Source of the DNA: Cyclobacteriaceae bacterium
GTDB lineage: Bacteria > Bacteroidota > Bacteroidia > Cytophagales > Cyclobacteriaceae
NCBI GenBank assembly: GCA_020436085.1
Contig: JAGQYM010000031.1
Span: forward strand, 1 to 52,765
Direction: 5' to 3'
Length of the DNA stretch: 52,765 nucleotides
Each line of letters begins with the position of its first letter. Positions within the stretch are counted from its first letter, which is position 1. A model generated the notes under the pieces. That model worked only from the letters and a program-made list of their open reading frames with translations, did not search any database and was not told the origin of the DNA. A program made the translations under genes and the position numbers. Positions 85 to 6,812 of the stretch are shown here, piece by piece.

Positions 85-1212
85 TTACAGCGCATTTATG
101 ATTTTATCCGCCAAGCCAAAAGACAATGTCATACCTGCTCCGCCAAGGCCATTGACGATGTGGACTCCATCATCCACTTCGGTTGCCCAATAATTTTCAT
201 TAGGTAATTTCGCATAGATGCCATGCCAACGCTCTACAATCTCAATTTTAGGGATTGAGATGAAGGAGCTGAGATAGCTGATTATCTCTGCATCGATTTC
301 TGTTTTATCAAACGGTTCCAATGTGTCACCATACTCATGCGAATCGCCTATGATTAGTTCACCTTCGTTATTTTGAGAGAGTAAGACGTGTATTCCATAT
401 TGTTTAAAGAATGGATTCTCACTGTCGTATCGGACATCCATCAATGACAGCGAAGGGCAATTCTTAAAAGCTTTGTAGTGTCGTAATGTAAGTCCTGCAC
501 AAAGCGAGGGCCCCAGGTCCAAAACATTTCCTGGTATTTCTGCTTTCATCATTTGAAGCTTACACTTCACAATGTCTTTTGCTTTGAAAGCGCCTGGATA
601 CAGTGTCTGGAAATCTGCACCGCTACAAATGATGACTTTGTCGACCTTCCATTTTTCCATTGATGTCTCAATCACCGGCAATGCGATTGTCTGAACCTGT
701 TGTCCGAATCGGAGTATCAAGCCGTATTCTTGTTCCAGCCAGGCTGGGATCTTTTTTAACGCCACTCTCGAGTTGACGGTACATTCAGTCTCGCTCCAAA
801 GCCCGCCAACCAACTTATTTGGATTAACTACTGATGATTTGAGTTCGACTGATGTTTTATCGAGCAATTGAATATCATACCCTTGCTTATTATATAAGTC
901 GACAAACTCGTTGAGCACGGCCCACTCGTCTTCATGATATGCAAGATGGAGTGAACCATTTCTATTGATCCAGAACCCGGTTTGATCCGCTACGTCAAGC
1001 CAATGTTTACGGCTGTTGAGCGCCATCTCCAGATCGTGACCAGCCGGCTGTCCAATTGGCCATATCATACCAAAATTTCGAACAGATGCACCGATGGCAA
1101 ATTGCTCTCTTTCGAATAACACTACTTTGTATCCTTTGCGAAGTGCATGATAAGCATGGGCAAGTCCAATGATACCGGCACCGACTATTGCGATATCTGC
1201 TGATCTATCCAT
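85..1212 (-). CDS. TIGR03364-type FAD-dependent oxidoreductase, phosphonate-associated
   Basis: A 375-residue flavoprotein of the glycine oxidase/DAAO fold. The dinucleotide-binding GxGxxG lies at residues 11-16 (GAGIIG) right at the N-terminus, with an acidic residue ending the second strand (VVLFERE). A C-terminal GLGGAGMTLSFG segment is typical of the flavin-contacting end of the family. Its length and motifs fit the TIGR03364 group, whose members recur beside phosphonate genes. Characterised relatives oxidise aminoethylphosphonate or its N-methyl forms to phosphonoacetaldehyde. That substrate is inferred here from the neighbours: a phosphonatase-like HAD and a PhnZ-like oxygenase within 4 kb. 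The start is an ATG at 1212. The gene is divergent from the DUF5690 gene across 155 nt, where I see no convincing promoter. Glycine or sarcosine oxidase activity is the main alternative. Confidence 0.8.
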   Translation of the reverse strand: MDRSADIAIVGAGIIGLAHAYHALRKGYKVVLFEREQFAIGASVRNFGMIWPIGQPAGHDLEMALNSRKHWLDVADQTGFWINRNGSLHLAYHEDEWAVLNEFVDLYNKQGYDIQLLDKTSVELKSSVVNPNKLVGGLWSETECTVNSRVALKKIPAWLEQEYGLILRFGQQVQTIALPVIETSMEKWKVDKVIICSGADFQTLYPGAFKAKDIVKCKLQMMKAEIPGNVLDLGPSLCAGLTLRHYKAFKNCPSLSLMDVRYDSENPFFKQYGIHVLLSQNNEGELIIGDSHEYGDTLEPFDKTEIDAEIISYLSSFISIPKIEIVERWHGIYAKLPNENYWATEVDDGVHIVNGLGGAGMTLSFGLADKIINAL

Positions 1213-1367
1213 TTGATAATTCTTGTTTTCGGCAAGTAATTGACATTACACTGCTTGCACCACATGCGATGCGTGAACCTTCTGTTAAATCCGGTGATGA
1301 TACTTAACTCATCCGTTACCTTCAATCGGTACAGTTGCGCTTAAATTGCCTGCTTTAACAATGTGCA

Positions 1368-2714
1368 ATGGAGGTTCAAGCTATTGGTGTAACCCAGACG
1401 AAGTTTAAAGACTGGCTGTCAAAACAAAACAGCGTAATTTTTACAGTAGTCGTGGCTCTCTCTTCGTTTCTGCTTTATTCATGTGTGTACACTTTTAGAA
1501 AGACGTTCTCAGTTGCCACATTCGAGGGAATGGCATACCTGAACATCAGCTATAAAGTGTGGCTGGTAACTTTTCAAGTCTTGGGCTATGCCCTTTCCAA
1601 ATTCATCGGCATCAAGGTAATATCAGAGTTAACCGCAAGCGGGCGAGCGAAAGGAATTTTGTTGATGGTGTGTATAGCAGGGTTGTCGTGGCTGGCTTTT
1701 GCAATTGTCCCTCCTCCGTTCAACATTATATTTTTATTTACCAATGGTTTACCTCTTGGCCTGATCTGGGGAATGATCTTTGGCTATCTTGAAGGAAGGC
1801 AATCGACAGAAGCGCTTGGCGCAGGACTCTCGACAAGTTTCATTTTTGCTTCAGGCTTTTCGCGATCTACAGGGGCTTACATTATGCAGGAGTGGCACAT
1901 CACTGAATTCTGGATGCCATTTGTTACTTGTTGTATCTTCATTCTTCCTCTCATTTTGTTTTTGTGGGTTCTTGATCAGGTGCCTGCTCCTTCCAGCCTG
2001 GACGAGCAAATGCGCACCAAGCGAACTCCGATGAATAAAGAGGCTAGAATAAATTTTATAAAATCGTTTTTACCCGGGATCGTGTTGTTTGTAGTCGCTT
2101 ATATGTTGCTTACTGCTTACCGCGACTTTAGAGATAACTTCTCGGCTGAAATTTGGACATCTCTACACTACACAAACTCACCACAGATATTCACTATAAC
2201 CGAGGTTCCTGTCGCCATCGCTGTTCTCATCATCATGGGGAGTATCATGTTTATTAAAAGCAATAGAGTGGCACTGGTGGTCAACCACCTGATAATTCTT
2301 TCCGGAATGATTGTTATTGGATGGAGTACTTATCTATTTGAAGAGGGTTCTCTTCAGGCTCCTATCTGGATGGTTCTCATTGGTCTTGGTCTGTATATGG
2401 GATATGTGCCGTTTAACAGCATCTTTTTTGAAAGGCTACTTGCTGCTTTCCGCTACACTGGCACGGTTGGGTTTGTCATGTATGTGGCCGATGCATTCGG
2501 TTATCTCGGAAGTGTAGGTGTAATGTTTTTTAAAGAGTTTGGGTTTGCAAATCTGAGTTGGCTATCATTTTTTATAAAAGCGGGCTACGCCACTTCCATC
2601 GTTGGAAGTCTGTTGACATTTGGATCACTTGTCTATTTTATTGAGAAAAGAAAGAGATGGCGTTATTACAGTGGGCCGGCCGCTACCCGAGGTGCGATCG
2701 ACACTTCGTTATAA
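1368..2714 (+). CDS. DUF5690 family polytopic membrane protein (copy 1), probable transporter
   Basis: A 448-residue protein with about twelve hydrophobic helices, resembling the major facilitator fold, assigned to DUF5690 by overall pattern. It is a clear paralog of the protein at 4831-6135. The two share SKFIGIKV in the third helix region, the NGLPLG and FGYLEGR loop motifs, a charged central loop (MRTKR.PM versus LRTKRLPM), and the RDNFxAxIW segment after the mid-loop. No substrate is established for the family as far as I know. Placement among phosphonate enzymes suggests uptake of a phosphonate or export of a product, which is inference. Its 3' end overlaps the convergent gene 2666-3262 by 49 nt. 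Its C-terminal tail is about a dozen residues longer than that of copy 2, and that tail accounts for the overlap. Confidence 0.75.
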   Translation: MEVQAIGVTQTKFKDWLSKQNSVIFTVVVALSSFLLYSCVYTFRKTFSVATFEGMAYLNISYKVWLVTFQVLGYALSKFIGIKVISELTASGRAKGILLMVCIAGLSWLAFAIVPPPFNIIFLFTNGLPLGLIWGMIFGYLEGRQSTEALGAGLSTSFIFASGFSRSTGAYIMQEWHITEFWMPFVTCCIFILPLILFLWVLDQVPAPSSLDEQMRTKRTPMNKEARINFIKSFLPGIVLFVVAYMLLTAYRDFRDNFSAEIWTSLHYTNSPQIFTITEVPVAIAVLIIMGSIMFIKSNRVALVVNHLIILSGMIVIGWSTYLFEEGSLQAPIWMVLIGLGLYMGYVPFNSIFFERLLAAFRYTGTVGFVMYVADAFGYLGSVGVMFFKEFGFANLSWLSFFIKAGYATSIVGSLLTFGSLVYFIEKRKRWRYYSGPAATRGAIDTSL

Positions 2715-3262
2715 AATTTGACAATCATGATAATGTCGGCCATCTGAGTTGGTCGCAGATGATTTTCACGGATGTAATCTGTAATTACATCTCCGACTTC
2801 GATCTTCATTTGATTAAGTCCATCGCCATAGAAGTTTCGGAACTCCTTAATTGGTTGGGACTTGGTAAGGAAATAATAGTTGTAATCAAGGTGATCAATC
2901 TCAGATATCTCCCGATACAGGTTTGTTGGCCTTCGCAGCACCGACACTGTACCTTTTACCACAACTTCAAAAAGCTTGCGAGTTTGATGATACCCTTCGT
3001 CAACGGGAAATGAATCAAACCTTCTATTAGCATTCAGAAGTGGATCATAACATCTGATTAGTTTGATCTTGTCAACCGGTAGTGCAACTCGCTCACCCTG
3101 TTCGGTGACCGCAAATACTAATTCAAATGAGGGGAAGGAAAGATTGCCTTTGATCAACTCGCCAGACTCCAACACTACCACACCTTCATACCACACGGGG
3201 TCCTTACATTGCGCAGCATGCAAAACACTGATCGTCAAACCTAAAGCCAAAAGGTATCGCAC
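2666..3262 (-). CDS. secreted hypothetical protein
   Basis: A 198-residue protein with a short hydrophobic N-terminus (MRYLLALGLTISVLHA) that looks like a signal peptide, followed by a soluble mixed alpha/beta body. A GxVVLESGExIxGxL pattern at about residues 27-42 suggests small beta-rich modules. I do not recognise a family with confidence; similar secreted proteins of unknown function are common in this phylum. The start is a GTG (3260-3262) and no upstream ATG is in frame. The C-terminal codons overlap the end of the DUF5690 gene on the other strand. A 22-nt inverted repeat lies just upstream of its start (3265-3286). It sits between phosphonate genes, but nothing in its sequence points to a role there. 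Confidence 0.6.
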   Translation of the reverse strand: MRYLLALGLTISVLHAAQCKDPVWYEGVVVLESGELIKGNLSFPSFELVFAVTEQGERVALPVDKIKLIRCYDPLLNANRRFDSFPVDEGYHQTRKLFEVVVKGTVSVLRRPTNLYREISEIDHLDYNYYFLTKSQPIKEFRNFYGDGLNQMKIEVGDVITDYIRENHLRPTQMADIIMIVKFYNEVSIAPRVAAGPL

Positions 3263-3264
3263 GT

Positions 3265-3286
3265 CATGTTAAGTTTAGTTAACATG
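3265..3286. promoter_or_regulatory. inverted repeat upstream of 2666-3262, possible operator or hairpin
   Basis: CATGTTAA, a 6-nt spacer and TTAACATG form a perfect 8-bp inverted repeat ending 2 nt before the GTG start of the minus-strand gene. It could be a regulator site or a 5' UTR hairpin. There is no T-run on either side, so a terminator is unlikely. Confidence 0.35.
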
Positions 3287-3316
3287 AATGTAACGATTCC
3301 TTAACTTAATAGCAAC

Positions 3317-4003
3317 CTAGGCTAATCCAAGAATTGGCACCAACTCCGGAATCTGGCTGATGAGATGAGAGTGTTTCTCCTGCTGTAGTACTTCTTTTGA
3401 GAATGCTCCAGTCGTAACGCCAATTACCATTCCACATCCTGCACTTGTTCCTTCAATCAAATCGGATCGAGTATCACCAACTTTAACTACTGTCTCTGCT
3501 TTCTCTACTCCAGTCAACTTCATCGCTTTAAATATCAGATCAGGATAAGGTCTTCCCTGTGCCACCTCATCGCTGGACACACTCGCATCTATTAAGCCAT
3601 TGCCAAGCCAGCCTGTTCTCCTCAATATGGCGTTTGTGATTTTTCTGTCAAACCCTGTATCAACGACCACCTTTATTCCGTTTTGCTTCAGTTTCTTAAA
3701 GGTATCACTCACTCCCTCCTTCTCAGAAAATTCCTTGTCCGTCTCGTAAAACCAGATCATTTCACACATAAATTCTTCATGCACGCGTGCAATGAAGCTA
3801 TCGGTTGCCTTACGGGCTTTGCCTTTCATTTCCAGCAACTGCCGGATAGCAACAGGCTTCGGTAGTCCCATTACTTCGTTTGCTTCGTCCAGCGTGATTG
3901 AAATACCAAAACCTGCAAAGGCTCTTTGCAAGGCCTTATGAACATCACGATTATCTTTTATAGTCGTTCCTGCCAAATCACAAACTACCAGTTCAATTTT
4001 CAT
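3317..4003 (-). CDS. phosphonatase-like HAD hydrolase (TIGR03351/PhnX-like)
   Basis: A 228-residue HAD-superfamily hydrolase. The nucleophile motif is DLAGTT (D9), the DxAGT form that marks phosphonoacetaldehyde hydrolases and close relatives instead of the usual DxDxT. The cap region has MGLPK with K49, which by my recollection aligns with the Schiff-base lysine of PhnX (MGLLK). The motif III basic residue is arginine (GRPYP), also phosphonatase-like, and KVGDTRSD supplies the metal-binding acidic residues near residue 175. The expected reaction is phosphonoacetaldehyde to acetaldehyde plus phosphate. It would consume the aldehyde made by the flavoprotein at 85-1212. It is shorter than PhnX (about 265 residues), which fits the PhnX-like subfamily. 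The exact substrate remains inferred. Confidence 0.82.
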   Translation of the reverse strand: MKIELVVCDLAGTTIKDNRDVHKALQRAFAGFGISITLDEANEVMGLPKPVAIRQLLEMKGKARKATDSFIARVHEEFMCEMIWFYETDKEFSEKEGVSDTFKKLKQNGIKVVVDTGFDRKITNAILRRTGWLGNGLIDASVSSDEVAQGRPYPDLIFKAMKLTGVEKAETVVKVGDTRSDLIEGTSAGCGMVIGVTTGAFSKEVLQQEKHSHLISQIPELVPILGLA

Positions 4004-4161
4004 TAGTTATCAGTTTAATGAAATATAGTCTGCCTACACTAACCCGCAGTTACACCTATGTAAAGTCAATTTGAAATAATGACTTGTAACCTTAATACAT
4101 TATTAAAAAAGGAAATCATAAGTCTTCACCGATCGCGATTTACTTTCGAAGAAAAGTAGCA

Positions 4162-4722
4162 ATGAACAATATCGATAGCATCGTTGATGAAATTTTCGGG
4201 CTGTATGAAAAGCACGGTGATGAAGATTACATTGGTGAACCTGTGTCGCAACTTGAGCACATGTCACAAGCAGCTCAGCTTGCTATGGATTCTGGTGCGG
4301 ATGATGAAGTGATACTCGCTGCCTTCTTTCACGACATTGGTCACATCTGCATTCCAAAGAACGAATCGAATGATATGGCCGGATTTGGAATCATAAAACA
4401 TGAAAAGGTTGGCGCGGATTTTTTAAGAGAGAAGGGGTTTCCTGAAAGGGTTGCGGCTCTTGTGGAGAGTCATGTGGTTGCAAAGAGATACCTCACTTTC
4501 AAATACCCGGAGTATTATTCCAGCCTTAGCGAAGCCAGTAAAAAGACTCTTGAACTCCAAGGCGGTAAAATGACAGAAACCGAAGCGCTGGCTTTCGAAA
4601 GTAATCCCCTATTTCACATGATGATCTTACTTCGAAAATGGGACGAGCAAGCCAAGGCCATTAATACCCCAGTTATAGATCTTGCCATCTTGAAAGAAAA
4701 AGCAAAAGCTGTTCTTTCGTAA
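4162..4722 (+). CDS. phnZ: PhnZ-like HD-domain mixed-valent diiron oxygenase
   Basis: A 186-residue HD-domain protein that closely follows PhnZ in length and sequence as I recall it. The substrate-gating DYIGE segment gives Y23 and E26. Metal ligands are H33, H57-D58 in FFHDIGH, H61, H80 in KHEKVG, H104 in ESHVVAKRYL, and D161 in RKWDEQAK. PhnZ cleaves the C-P bond of (R)-1-hydroxy-2-aminoethylphosphonate using O2 and a diiron cofactor, giving glycine and phosphate. TmpB, which acts on the trimethylated analogue, is the main alternative. The usual partner that makes the hydroxylated substrate, a 2-oxoglutarate-dependent PhnY, is not in this window and may lie left of it. Copy 2 of DUF5690 follows 108 nt downstream on the same strand. 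Confidence 0.87.
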   Translation: MNNIDSIVDEIFGLYEKHGDEDYIGEPVSQLEHMSQAAQLAMDSGADDEVILAAFFHDIGHICIPKNESNDMAGFGIIKHEKVGADFLREKGFPERVAALVESHVVAKRYLTFKYPEYYSSLSEASKKTLELQGGKMTETEALAFESNPLFHMMILLRKWDEQAKAINTPVIDLAILKEKAKAVLS

Positions 4723-4830
4723 TAACATCCTGCCAACCTTCTCTGTAATTTCTCCACCTCGTCAGAAGGATTATTACCATTAGGTTAAAAAATTAGTCAT
4801 ATTGTTGGGCGATATAGACTCTGCTCAACG

Positions 4831-6135
4831 ATGACGACAATCAAGGAAGGAGAACACGGCATCACACGATGGCTAAAAAGTTCTAGCGGATTTACTTTTG
4901 CTTTCTATACTTCTGCGCTCGCGTTCCTGACTTATGCCTGTATTTTTTCAGTACGAAAGACTTTTGGCGCGGGCATCTATTCTGATTTTACTTTCCTGGG
5001 AGGTGACTACAAGATATGGATGGTCATTTCGCAGGCGGTAGGTTATATGATTTCCAAGTTTATCGGCATCAAGGTTGTTTCAGAATCGGGTAGCGATAAT
5101 AGAGGTAGAGGAATATTCATGGCGCTAACATTTTCGATGTTCGCATGGTTAGGCTTTGGATTGGTGCCTCCACCTTACAATCTCGTGTTTATGTTTCTCA
5201 ATGGACTGCCACTGGGAATGGTGTGGGGGTTGATGTTTGGATACCTGGAGGGAAGGAAATTTACCGAAGTACTTGGAGCTAGTTTATCGGTGAGTTTCAT
5301 TTTTGCTTCCGGCTTTGCAAAAACGGTCGCCACATTTGTGATGGTGGATTGGGGAATTACAGAAATGTGGATGCCATTTGTATCGTCTCTAATATTTTAT
5401 GTTCCGATGCTTCTGTTCCTGTGGCTTCTTGACAAGATTCCGCCACCAAGCGAGGAGGATGAAAGGTTGAGAACAAAGAGATTGCCTATGATGGGAAAGG
5501 ACAGGGTGAAGTTTGCGCTCACGTTCGCACCAGGTCTTGTATTATTGGTTCTCACCTACATGATGCTCACAATTTTCCGTGATCTACGCGATAACTTTGC
5601 CGCGGACATTTGGGTGGAACTGGGATATGGCGGACAACCTTCAATATTTACTGCCACTGAATTACCTGTCACCATTGTCGTTCTGGTTGTAATCGGCAGT
5701 CTGATGGTGATCAAAAACAACTACACGGCAATGATGATCAATCATCTCATCGTTTTGTTTGGGATGATTCTGGTAGGTGTTGGAACGTTTGCCTTCGAAC
5801 GAGAATGGATTGGCGCTCCAGCCTGGATGATCCTGGTAGGAATGGGTTTGTATTTTGGATACATACAGTTCAACAGCATTTTCTTCGATCGAATCATTGC
5901 AGCTTTCAAGTATGTGAGTACGGTAGGATTCCTCATTTATCTTGCAGACTCCGTTGGATATGTGGGAAGCTTGAGTGTGTTGCTATACAAATCGTTTGGG
6001 AAAAGTGGGATGAGCTGGTTGAACTTCTTCATGTCAACCGGCTATGTGATTTCGACACTTGGAAGTGGTTTGATTATTCTTTCTCTGTTCTATTTCAGGA
6101 AGAAGTTTAGACTTTGGGAAGCAATCTTCAGATAA
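4831..6135 (+). CDS. DUF5690 family polytopic membrane protein (copy 2), probable transporter
   Basis: A 434-residue paralog of the protein at 1368-2714, with the same predicted twelve-helix layout. It shares the SKFIGIKVVSE, NGLPLGMVWG and FGYLEGRKFTE segments and the LRTKRLPM cytoplasmic loop. It lies 108 nt after the PhnZ-like gene on the same strand and is probably co-transcribed. Two copies of one putative carrier flanking phosphonate enzymes suggests related but different substrates, for example aminoethylphosphonate and a methylated or hydroxylated derivative. This is inference from context only. The next features downstream are the tRNA-Arg terminator and the tRNA on the opposite strand, and I see no terminator oriented for this gene. 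Confidence 0.75.
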   Translation: MTTIKEGEHGITRWLKSSSGFTFAFYTSALAFLTYACIFSVRKTFGAGIYSDFTFLGGDYKIWMVISQAVGYMISKFIGIKVVSESGSDNRGRGIFMALTFSMFAWLGFGLVPPPYNLVFMFLNGLPLGMVWGLMFGYLEGRKFTEVLGASLSVSFIFASGFAKTVATFVMVDWGITEMWMPFVSSLIFYVPMLLFLWLLDKIPPPSEEDERLRTKRLPMMGKDRVKFALTFAPGLVLLVLTYMMLTIFRDLRDNFAADIWVELGYGGQPSIFTATELPVTIVVLVVIGSLMVIKNNYTAMMINHLIVLFGMILVGVGTFAFEREWIGAPAWMILVGMGLYFGYIQFNSIFFDRIIAAFKYVSTVGFLIYLADSVGYVGSLSVLLYKSFGKSGMSWLNFFMSTGYVISTLGSGLIILSLFYFRKKFRLWEAIFR

Positions 6136-6192: not shown

Positions 6193-6221
6193 AAAAAATC
6201 CCGACCGCGAGGGTCGGGATT
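6193..6221 (-). terminator. Rho-independent terminator of the tRNA-Arg unit
   Basis: Read on the minus strand, a 10-bp perfect stem (AATCCCGACC pairing with GGTCGGGATT) with a 5-nt loop is followed by six T residues. It starts 8 nt after the tRNA 3' end. On the plus strand there is no T-run, so it does not serve the DUF5690 gene. Confidence 0.85.
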
Positions 6222-6229
6222 AATCTTCG

Positions 6230-6303
6230 TGAGCCTGCAGGGATTCAAACCCCGAGTCTTCTGATCCGTAGTCAGATGCTTTATTCAGTTAAGCTACAGG
6301 CCC
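6230..6303 (-). tRNA. tRNA-Arg (ACG)
   Basis: A 74-nt cloverleaf read on the minus strand. The acceptor stem is GGGCCTG with CAGGCTC plus discriminator A; the D stem is GCTT/AAGC; the anticodon stem is TCTGA/TCAGA around CTACGGA, giving anticodon ACG; the variable loop is 5 nt; the T stem is CGGGG/CCCTG with loop TTTGAAT. CCA is not encoded. Two normally invariant tertiary bases differ: the D-loop has GA where G18-G19 is expected, and the T-loop has T where C56 is expected. Together they give an A19-U56 pair in place of G19-C56, so the elbow contact is conserved by covariation. ACG normally becomes ICG and reads CGU, CGC and CGA. A 61-nt identical but truncated copy lies upstream (6654-6733). 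Confidence 0.93.
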
Positions 6304-6388
6304 TCAACAAAATACGGACCACTTGAGTGGATGCGTGCGCAAATTTAAATCAAAAAGTCTACTAACCAAAGAGCTCAAAAAATCACCT

Positions 6389-6628
6389 CTATAAGCCAAG
6401 CGATTTAATAAAATCCCTTCCTTGACCTGTTTTCAAAAATTTCTCCCGTGCAATTGCCTCTTCTCTTGTTGGAAATTTTTCTGTGTATACAATTTTCCAA
6501 GGCCCGAATCCCTTTGTCGATTTTACCTTTCCTCCATTATGCTCAAGCAGTCTTCTTTCCGGACTTTCACTCATTCCCTTATAGAGTCGATTCGTCCTTT
6601 GACTTTTTATTATATAGATGAAGTACAG
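6389..6628 (-). CDS. small GIY-YIG nuclease, no ATG start, lying between two tRNA-Arg copies
   Basis: The frame encodes a 79-residue single-domain GIY-YIG nuclease of the UvrC N-terminal/YhbQ-like type. The first ATG (6572-6574) would give only 61 residues and would remove the two family-defining strands. Upstream in the same frame the sequence reads LYFIYIIKS and then RLYKGMS, which are the GIY and YIG elements. Further on come ERRLLEHNGG and FGPWKIVYTE. There is no ATG or GTG between the in-frame stop at 6656-6658, which lies inside the tRNA remnant's T-loop, and this region. A CTG at 6626-6628 sits where relatives have their start, so I place the start there; ATT at 6653-6655 is another possibility. 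Either it uses a non-standard start or the start was lost when the cassette formed. It is probably transcribed from the tRNA promoter. Confidence 0.7.
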   Translation of the reverse strand: MYFIYIIKSQRTNRLYKGMSESPERRLLEHNGGKVKSTKGFGPWKIVYTEKFPTREEAIAREKFLKTGQGRDFIKSLGL

Positions 6629-6653
6629 AAAGGTTAAGGTCAGTTTTGAGTGA

Positions 6654-6733
6654 ATTCAAACCCCGAGTCTTCCCTGCCTGCGGCAGGCAGGTGATCCGTA
6701 GTCAGATGCTTTATTCAGTTAAGCTACAGGCCC
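6654..6733 (-). pseudogene. truncated tRNA-Arg copy with 19-bp palindromic insertion
   Basis: It is identical over 61 nt to the 5' part of the intact tRNA-Arg (nt 1-61 of the tRNA), interrupted after nt 42 by 19 extra bases in the 3' strand of the anticodon stem. Identity stops exactly at the 3' end of the T-loop. The last T-stem strand, the acceptor 3' strand and the discriminator base are absent and replaced by the start of the GIY-YIG reading frame. It cannot fold into a tRNA. It shares the unusual D-loop and T-loop bases of the intact copy, so those changes preceded the duplication. The probable original tRNA promoter lies upstream of this remnant. Confidence 0.9.
6673..6691. repeat. 19-bp perfect palindrome inserted in the tRNA remnant
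   Basis: CCTGCCTGCGGCAGGCAGG has 9-bp arms around a single central G. Comparison with the intact tRNA copy shows a clean insertion with no loss of flanking bases. GC-rich palindromes of this look recur in Bacteroidota intergenic DNA by my recollection. No second copy was noticed in this window. Confidence 0.85.
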
Positions 6734-6773
6734 TTACTCACCCCAGGTGTGTGACCCCGAGGCTATGGGATCG

Positions 6774-6804
6774 CAAATGTAAAAGAATAAAATCTTTCAG
6801 CCAA
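6774..6804 (-). promoter_or_regulatory. Bacteroidota-type promoter for the tRNA-Arg/GIY-YIG unit
   Basis: On the minus strand, TTG (6802-6804), a 20-nt spacer and TACATTTG (6774-6781) match the TTG/TAnnTTTG consensus of the Bacteroidota primary sigma factor exactly. It points toward the tRNA remnant 40 nt downstream. Transcription would pass through the remnant and the nuclease gene before reaching the intact tRNA and its terminator. Confidence 0.65.
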
Positions 6805-6812
6805 AGAACGTT

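Follow-up and report, generated by a model that had tools for sequence, protein, structure and literature searches.

A gene for a small GIY-YIG nuclease is lodged between a broken and an intact copy of the same tRNA-Arg(ACG) gene in a 52,765-nt stretch of Cyclobacteriaceae DNA, which was analysed whole and is called the window below. We consider it probable that this is a selfish, intron-less homing cassette, one that would cut and home into an RNA gene and regenerate the gene it interrupts. The proposal draws on the architecture of the locus, its recurrence beside other tRNA genes, nuclease clades that follow the host tRNA, purifying selection, tandem copies, and the empty, occupied and scarred alleles of one tRNA gene.

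On the minus strand, positions 6805-6193 hold the GIY-YIG gene between the broken and the intact tRNA-Arg(ACG), with a promoter-like site ahead of each tRNA copy and a terminator at the end:

6774-6805, minus strand: promoter-like site (TTTG at 6805-6802, 20 nt, TACATTTG at 6781-6774), read from sequence; it aligns to the promoter region of L122, an empty site.
6692-6733, minus strand: tRNA-Arg(ACG) remnant, tRNA positions 1-42, 100% identical to the intact tRNA.
6673-6691, minus strand: 19-nt palindrome CCTGCCTGCCGCAGGCAGG between remnant tRNA positions 42 and 43, with similar palindromes in the remnants of other loci.
6654-6672, minus strand: tRNA-Arg(ACG) remnant, tRNA positions 43-61, ending in the T-loop, 100% identical to the intact tRNA.
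6389-6628, minus strand: small GIY-YIG nuclease of 79 aa with a likely CTG start (PF01541, AlphaFold2, Foldseek).
6340-6370, minus strand: second promoter-like site (TTTG at 6370-6367, 19 nt, TAAATTTG at 6347-6340), read from sequence, directly upstream of the intact tRNA.
6229-6303, minus strand: intact tRNA-Arg(ACG) as called by ARAGORN (6303-6230 by Rfam RF00005, 61.8 bits).
6193-6220, minus strand: intrinsic terminator read from sequence (hairpin about 6220-6198, T-run to 6193).

The combination of TTTG and TACATTTG matches what we take to be the Bacteroidota promoter consensus. The original prediction had described a promoter, a 61-nt tRNA remnant, a GIY-YIG frame, an identical intact tRNA and a terminator; this locus is real, and the length given for the remnant holds, whereas its continuity does not, the palindrome at 42|43 having been overlooked. 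The old promoter was also thought to drive both the nuclease and the intact tRNA. That view loses its footing, because the intact tRNA has a promoter-like site of its own, likewise overlooked, and hitchhiking of the nuclease on tRNA transcription is not forced. An alignment of the two leaders scored 57.5, narrowly above the best of 500 shuffles (55.5), and the second site is perhaps a duplicated copy of the old promoter, made as part of the duplication. A genome search of the window's assembly found no second full-length match to tRNA-Arg(ACG). The arrangement is evidently not a product of chance, because the 42-nt and 19-nt copies are exact and the same arrangement recurs across many genomes. 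A group I intron was ruled out in the window: Rfam over its whole length returned the tRNA alone, with no catalytic intron core around the ORF. Elsewhere in the window, positions 85-6135 carry a phosphonate-degradation-like cluster with a TIGR03364 FAD oxidoreductase (432.6 bits), a PhnX-like hydrolase and a PhnZ-like HD oxygenase, both slightly below the curated cut-off, and two similar membrane-transporter-like proteins that matched no NCBIfam model.

The window protein belongs to the GIY-YIG nuclease superfamily. Its domain lies within 6625-6416 and matches PF01541 at 58.5 bits (curated cut-off 22.6), and all 29 members of profile A1 match the same family. Residues Y5, Y16, R26 and E62 are invariant in 28 sequences; conserved Tyr, Arg and Glu are the catalytic residues of GIY-YIG nucleases. 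The frame opens 3′ of a TGA in the T-loop of the remnant and stops at TAG 6391-6389. No in-frame ATG, GTG or TTG lies ahead of the domain, the likely start being CTG 6628-6626. Four of the 168 copies examined lack a common start codon, the window copy among them, and this copy, without a normal start codon, may be decaying. An AlphaFold2 model (pLDDT 96.5) finds its nearest solved structures in UPF0213 (1zg2, Foldseek E 2.3e-4) and then Slx1, and profile A1 matches 1zg2 at E 5.3e-18; by sequence and by predicted fold the protein is UPF0213-like. The match to the I-TevI catalytic domain is weak (E 0.19), and the short protein has no separate DNA-binding domain. None of the NCBIfam models fits the window copy, and the NCBIfam model for group I intron endonucleases matches 10 of the 29 relatives weakly (best 7.1e-6). 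Matches to PHROG homing endonucleases are likewise weak, occurring in 6 of the 29 members (phrog_314, best E 1.3e-4), with none for the window copy.

Nine GIY-YIG matches occur in the window's assembly, and at five of its seven tRNA-scanned loci the nuclease adjoins a tRNA (His, Arg-ACG, Leu, Arg-CCG and a truncated Phe). All 58 genomes searched, the window's own and 57 relatives, contain matches, and many of the 29 further loci from this search show a far-side partial copy of the neighbouring tRNA. Across the phylum, a profile of 29 proteins matches 255 of 392 sampled genomes and 128 of 178 genera (E 1e-8 or better), with the tRNA neighbourhood checked for part of these matches. A protein-pattern search of named genomes, its query built from seven tRNA-linked, Arg-rich proteins, gave a same-strand tRNA within 300 bp at 75 of 80 loci (the best 80 of 557); Arg is over-represented in this set because the query is Arg-rich and the set is the best 80 of 557. 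Of the five exceptions, L252 and L262 run into contig ends, L258 and L279 have a tRNA that Rfam scores weakly, and L286 has a tRNA-Thr with a group I intron. Among the same best 80 of 557 are six non-Bacteroidota records (Patescibacteria, Uhrbacteria, Saccharibacteria, Yanofskybacteria and two Scalindua), assigned by record name and open to binning errors, and all six lie beside tRNAs. On present records the arrangement is neither rare nor limited to Bacteroidota.

The pooled set comprised 310 copies after removal of eight loci that duplicated another place, with near-copies remaining; 205 have a same-strand tRNA within 300 bp and none has an opposite-strand tRNA within that distance. For the 281 short-type copies, the tRNA lies within 150 bp in 197, at 151-300 in 6 and at 301-1200 in 3, and the rest are tandem neighbours (52), near a contig or locus end (10) or without a called tRNA (13). 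Rfam identified an RNA at several of these last 13, namely tmRNA (L055, L210), tRNA (L258), RNase P RNA (L214) and a tRNA intron (L286), and L162, L209 and L218 have tRNA-like fragments at their ends by eye. A sister long-type GIY-YIG lineage shows a tRNA link in 0 of 29 copies (three at locus ends) and an Rfam RNA in 0 of 20 scanned loci, the short and long labels resting on a text pattern written after the sequences were seen (L047 and L051, filed as short, look long-type by eye). Altogether 31 anticodons are used, as judged from the nearest called tRNA, a label that may be wrong in tRNA clusters (e.g. L064). The two tmRNA hosts (L210:336-1023 and L055:558-1340) have the order intact tmRNA, nuclease, 3′ tmRNA fragment, and in L210 a hairpin splits the T-loop of the fragment.

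A metagenome assembly artefact is unlikely: tRNA-adjoining cassettes occur in the single-contig genomes G312, G370 and G302, and they are also present in records named as isolates (Algoriphagus kandeliae and Maribacter caenipelagi). Phage or plasmid cargo was rejected, as tblastn with L013 returned 13 phage records, all below 60% identity, and 2 plasmids; of 45 viral-contig relatives 40 were checked, and two adjoin a tRNA. A related GIY-YIG group (L068:951-1260, L186:710-1025, L214:703-1006) is flanked by inverted repeats of 24-34 nt containing CCCCG and resembles a one-gene insertion sequence. No tRNA was called at these loci, and in L214 one repeat arm lies inside the RNase P RNA gene.

The cassettes come in two mirror-image orders. 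Type A runs intact tRNA, terminator, nuclease, 3′ tRNA fragment, terminator, and type B runs 5′ tRNA fragment, nuclease, intact tRNA. A far-side fragment of the cognate tRNA accompanies 176 of 197 copies, compared with 57 of 591 non-cognate trials (type A, 84/94 vs. 34/282; type B, 92/103 vs. 23/309), so that the far-side partial copies foreseen for small GIY-YIG genes near tRNAs are indeed widespread. The type B stop codon begins at position 8 (27 copies) or 21 (27 copies) of the intact tRNA (n = 103), and the type A start codon often directly follows the terminator T-run by eye. Many remnants are just ~20 nt long. In the remnants of L015, L020 and L027 the anticodon arm is, by eye, swapped for an unrelated hairpin of similar length and not just interrupted. 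At L286:1101-1880 a group I intron (66.8 bits in Rfam; ARAGORN also calls an intron) interrupts the anticodon loop of a tRNA-Thr(TGT), and a type B GIY cassette with a palindrome-bearing remnant lies directly upstream.

A same-genus search with the window tRNA found a match in 49 of 58 genomes, and the best 30 loci, all tRNA-Arg(ACG), were read. Twenty-six are empty, three are occupied (the window, G011 and G065) and one is scarred (G027), holding a remnant and a similar palindrome without the nuclease. An outer-membrane-protein gene flanks 27 of the 30 loci and 24 of the 26 empty ones. The empty site L122 (G025) is collinear with the window locus on either side, at 71-72%; where the two flank alignments meet, they share exactly the 42 tRNA bases that are duplicated. 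Occupied and empty alleles are thus found at the same conserved site, a pattern expected of a free-standing homing gene. The palindrome lies at 42|43 in the window but at 22|23 in both G011 and G065, and the nuclease of G011 falls in a different clade from that of the window; because of these two differences, the G011/G065 insertion was very probably an event separate from the window's at the same tRNA. The original prediction of insertion into a tRNA gene with regeneration of that gene is supported by the empty same-genus sites and the recurring cognate partial copies, and the empty alleles and repeated insertions that it named as support for mobility are both represented here, the latter very probably by two events.

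At tRNA-Leu(CAA) a GIY-YIG match is present at 6 of 14 loci tested and absent at 8, including L365, which is cut right after the tRNA. Closely similar nucleases occur in G023, G002, G001 and G007, and in G006 the match lies some 300 bp off. The tRNA-Leu(CAA) locus of G008 (L363:1584-2090) has a divergent GIY-YIG frame (E 2e-8) at the same place and a remnant with two hairpins. In G002, G001 and G007 both copies carry the species' own terminator by eye, and in G023 the final terminator is different. Because a species-specific terminator is present twice in those three genomes, the repeated part looks local, which speaks against the earlier idea that a full replacement tRNA had entered with the nuclease.

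In the cycle that we propose, the nuclease would cut its cognate gene in a cassette-free chromosome, be it for a tRNA or for some other folded RNA (tmRNA, for example), and repair of the break would copy the nuclease gene into the cut site. A local stretch would be duplicated, either the 5′ part of the tRNA with its leader or the 3′ part with its terminator, and the outcomes retaining one complete tRNA would alone survive. The truncated copy often has the palindrome in one of its loops, and its most likely role is to destroy the cut site in that copy.

The nuclease has a median dN/dS of 0.16, with all 45 usable pairs below 0.5, and is on this measure under purifying selection. On a tree of 190 proteins (70 columns, 190 rows; weakly supported, with 97 of 187 inner branches open), the tRNA amino acid changes 43 times against a shuffled mean of 107 and minimum of 101, and the host family changes 58 times against a shuffled mean of 94 (162 rows). 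In this comparison nuclease clades track the host tRNA, and the window protein groups with the tRNA-Arg(ACG) nucleases L238 and L298 (support 82). For 13 of 16 close pairs the alignment covers not just the element but also a long piece of flank, so that much of the presence appears to be inherited and not freshly transferred; vertical inheritance is, by this comparison, common. Recent horizontal transfer is only partly supported by the flanks. The element of L039 is 96% identical to those of L020 and L044, with 113-128 bp shared downstream and nothing upstream, and L170 and L193 have no flank in common at 82-84%.

Perfect hairpins with arms of at least 7 occur in 102 of 176 remnant zones (~58%), compared with 60 of 795 equal-length windows elsewhere in the loci; the other 74 zones have no hairpin of this strength. 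Among 29 junctions counted in Arg type B inserts, 22|23 was used twelve times and 21|22 eight times, and in Leu(CAA) cassettes the palindrome splits the T-loop, the loop of the SegB motif as read below. Bacteroidota share an identical 20-nt palindrome with records named Uhrbacteria and Yanofskybacteria. With at most one mismatch, CCTGCCTGCCGGCAGGCAGG occurs 0-3 times per genome, at 15 places in 9 of 35 genomes, and its reversed control pattern occurs at 0 places in the 35. Nine of the 15 places adjoin a tRNA that has a cassette or a remnant; the other six lie away from tRNA cassettes (one each in G011, G014 and G017, three in G022). No tRNA was called within the 2-3 kb read around the six places at L301, L302, L304, L307 and L311. 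A genome-wide REP-like repeat was rejected for CCTGCCTGCCGGCAGGCAGG, which is rare and tRNA-enriched, though not tRNA-confined. A search of the window allowing 3 mismatches gave 0 matches to CCTGCCTGCCGGCAGGCAGG, because the window version is one base shorter. Palindrome-bearing remnants near intact tRNAs were also seen at L300:1212 (Asn), L308:1501 (Leu), L310:1046 (Gly) and L313:1010 (Ala), with no nuclease match at these four loci. They are scars, and the tRNA-Gly one lies in the window's own genome.

Junctions at such repeatable loop places (22|23 or 21|22 at 20 of the 29 Arg type B junctions) would also suit an Slx1-like, structure-directed element that acts on cruciform or cloverleaf DNA of tRNA genes and of the palindrome, the palindrome being its working end or cut site. 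UPF0213 and Slx1 are the top matches in both fold and sequence, the hosts are folded RNA genes with tmRNA among them, and the related group L068, L186 and L214 has its flanking inverted repeats (24-34 nt), all in keeping with this idea. We nevertheless hold it to be unlikely: the clades follow the tRNA amino acid, so that sequence recognition would be needed too, and a strong hairpin is present in just ~58% of remnant zones.

Tandem arrays reach five copies with a 450-bp period in the single-contig genome G312, and repeats of nuclease and tRNA fragment are common (52 of the 310 copies are tandem neighbours). Plain tandem duplication could account for these repeats if the nuclease were an ordinary tRNA neighbour that unequal crossing-over had copied along with the tRNA ends, homing playing no part; the locally duplicated species-specific terminators (by eye) and the decay of some second copies fit this view. 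It is quite unlikely in our estimate, given that empty sites have one tRNA, no nuclease and both flanks kept, that the type B remnant of L005 begins directly after the promoter with no nuclease fragment ahead, and that the link extends to 31 anticodons and tmRNA and never to the opposite strand within 300 bp. Very unlikely indeed is a toxin-antidote or other host function, in which the nuclease would act on its cognate tRNA as RNA with the loop-replaced remnant as a decoy, or in which the unit would serve tRNA gene dosage in the way that SegB amplification does in phage: the remnant, the nuclease and the tRNA are lined up and could share one transcript, the anticodon arms of L015, L020 and L027 are exchanged for other hairpins (by eye) and selection is purifying, but most alleles of the same tRNA lack the cassette (26/30), nuclease-free scars survive (G027, L300, L308, L310 and L313), many remnants are ~20 nt, and we know of no RNase activity in the GIY-YIG domain family.

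The homing cycle has difficulties of its own. The nearest solved structures, UPF0213 and Slx1, are not homing enzymes, and the shared flanks of 13 of 16 close pairs, the 74 remnant zones with no strong hairpin and the missing start codon of the window copy also weigh against it. Seven other same-genus genomes have the very same tRNA as the intact one in the window and no cassette there, so the window's intact tRNA should remain a target, and the cycle does not explain how it escapes cutting. It is the remnant that is broken and often hairpin-bearing, while the intact tRNA equals that of the empty alleles. The intact tRNA could be spared if recognition also takes in leader or flanking sequence, which is different there, if nuclease expression is low or if cuts are repaired, and in L286 the anticodon-loop group I intron could protect it.

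Transfer RNA genes are docking sites for integrase-carrying phages and islands and for self-splicing introns. Here a single nuclease of ~80 residues, without integrase, transposase or intron, appears to inhabit tRNA genes phylum-wide, often several per genome. Among the titles and abstracts listed by a literature search, with subscription papers and preprints mostly outside it, none dealt with small GIY-YIG genes that lodge in the tRNA genes of bacterial chromosomes. Homing without an intron and mobile ORFs that regenerate their host gene both have precedents; what appeared in none of the listed results is the combination of a minimal nuclease, hosts among tRNA and tmRNA genes, lineages that follow the tRNA, a palindrome-marked pseudo-copy and phylum-wide spread. 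We put it at about even that the cassettes form an undescribed mobile class, made up of one-gene GIY-YIG lineages each dedicated to one folded RNA gene, which would be rebuilt by local duplication while a palindrome-broken pseudo-copy is kept. If the proposal is true, nature would supply GIY-YIG nucleases by the dozen, specific to tRNA genes and predictable in their targets; it would also account for the broken tRNA copies and the tandem repeats seen at tRNA loci, and provide a system for asking how introns and homing enzymes join.

Group I introns in bacterial tRNA genes are mobile and tolerated as the tRNA is restored. They restore it by splicing, whereas the cassettes would do so by duplication, with no intron in the window; one locus, L286, has both a cassette and a group I intron. 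It is a possible intermediate of collaborative homing, and within the reading as an undescribed class it would be a natural one, with cassette and intron in one tRNA-Thr. The arrangement resembles collaborative homing as discussed in PMC2988022. In sequence and fold the nearest relatives of the cassette nucleases are UPF0213/Slx1-like proteins (1zg2, 1ywl, Slx1); the long-type GIY-YIG copies of the same genomes differ from the cassettes in having no tRNA link.

SegB of phages T4 and T6 offers the best outside support for the proposed cycle. SegB has a C-terminal DNA-binding part. It is described as a free-standing GIY-YIG homing endonuclease among tRNA genes that cuts inside them at the motif RAWTSGAAC (PMC13096335; PMC2988022), drives tandem amplification of the tRNA region and favours no tRNA isotype (PMC13096335). 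On our own reading, RAWTSGAAC would be the complement of the tRNA T-loop. As portrayed there, SegB shares with the cassettes the GIY-YIG domain, the free-standing state and a place among tRNA genes, but it is phage-borne, whereas the cassettes lie mostly in bacterial genomes, encode ~79 aa in the window and track isoacceptors. The cassettes are also directly joined to a broken tRNA copy, while the available descriptions of SegB mention neither a truncated tRNA nor a palindrome (PMC13096335; PMC2988022).

A second parallel is found in the mobile ORFs of fungal mitochondria (Glomus atp6, atp9, cox2 and nad3; Allomyces atp6), where an intron-less endonuclease ORF sits in an essential gene whose end is duplicated (PMC3630166). 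One of the four Glomus ORFs (atp9) is GIY-YIG, mobile ORFs being mostly LAGLIDADG, and in the authors' view the carboxy-terminal part that was inserted may be foreign (PMC3630166). As reported there, the fungal elements occupy protein genes in mitochondria, whereas the cassettes occupy RNA genes in bacteria and have either end duplicated. If our reading is correct, the cassettes would be the bacterial counterpart of both the fungal mobile ORFs and phage SegB.
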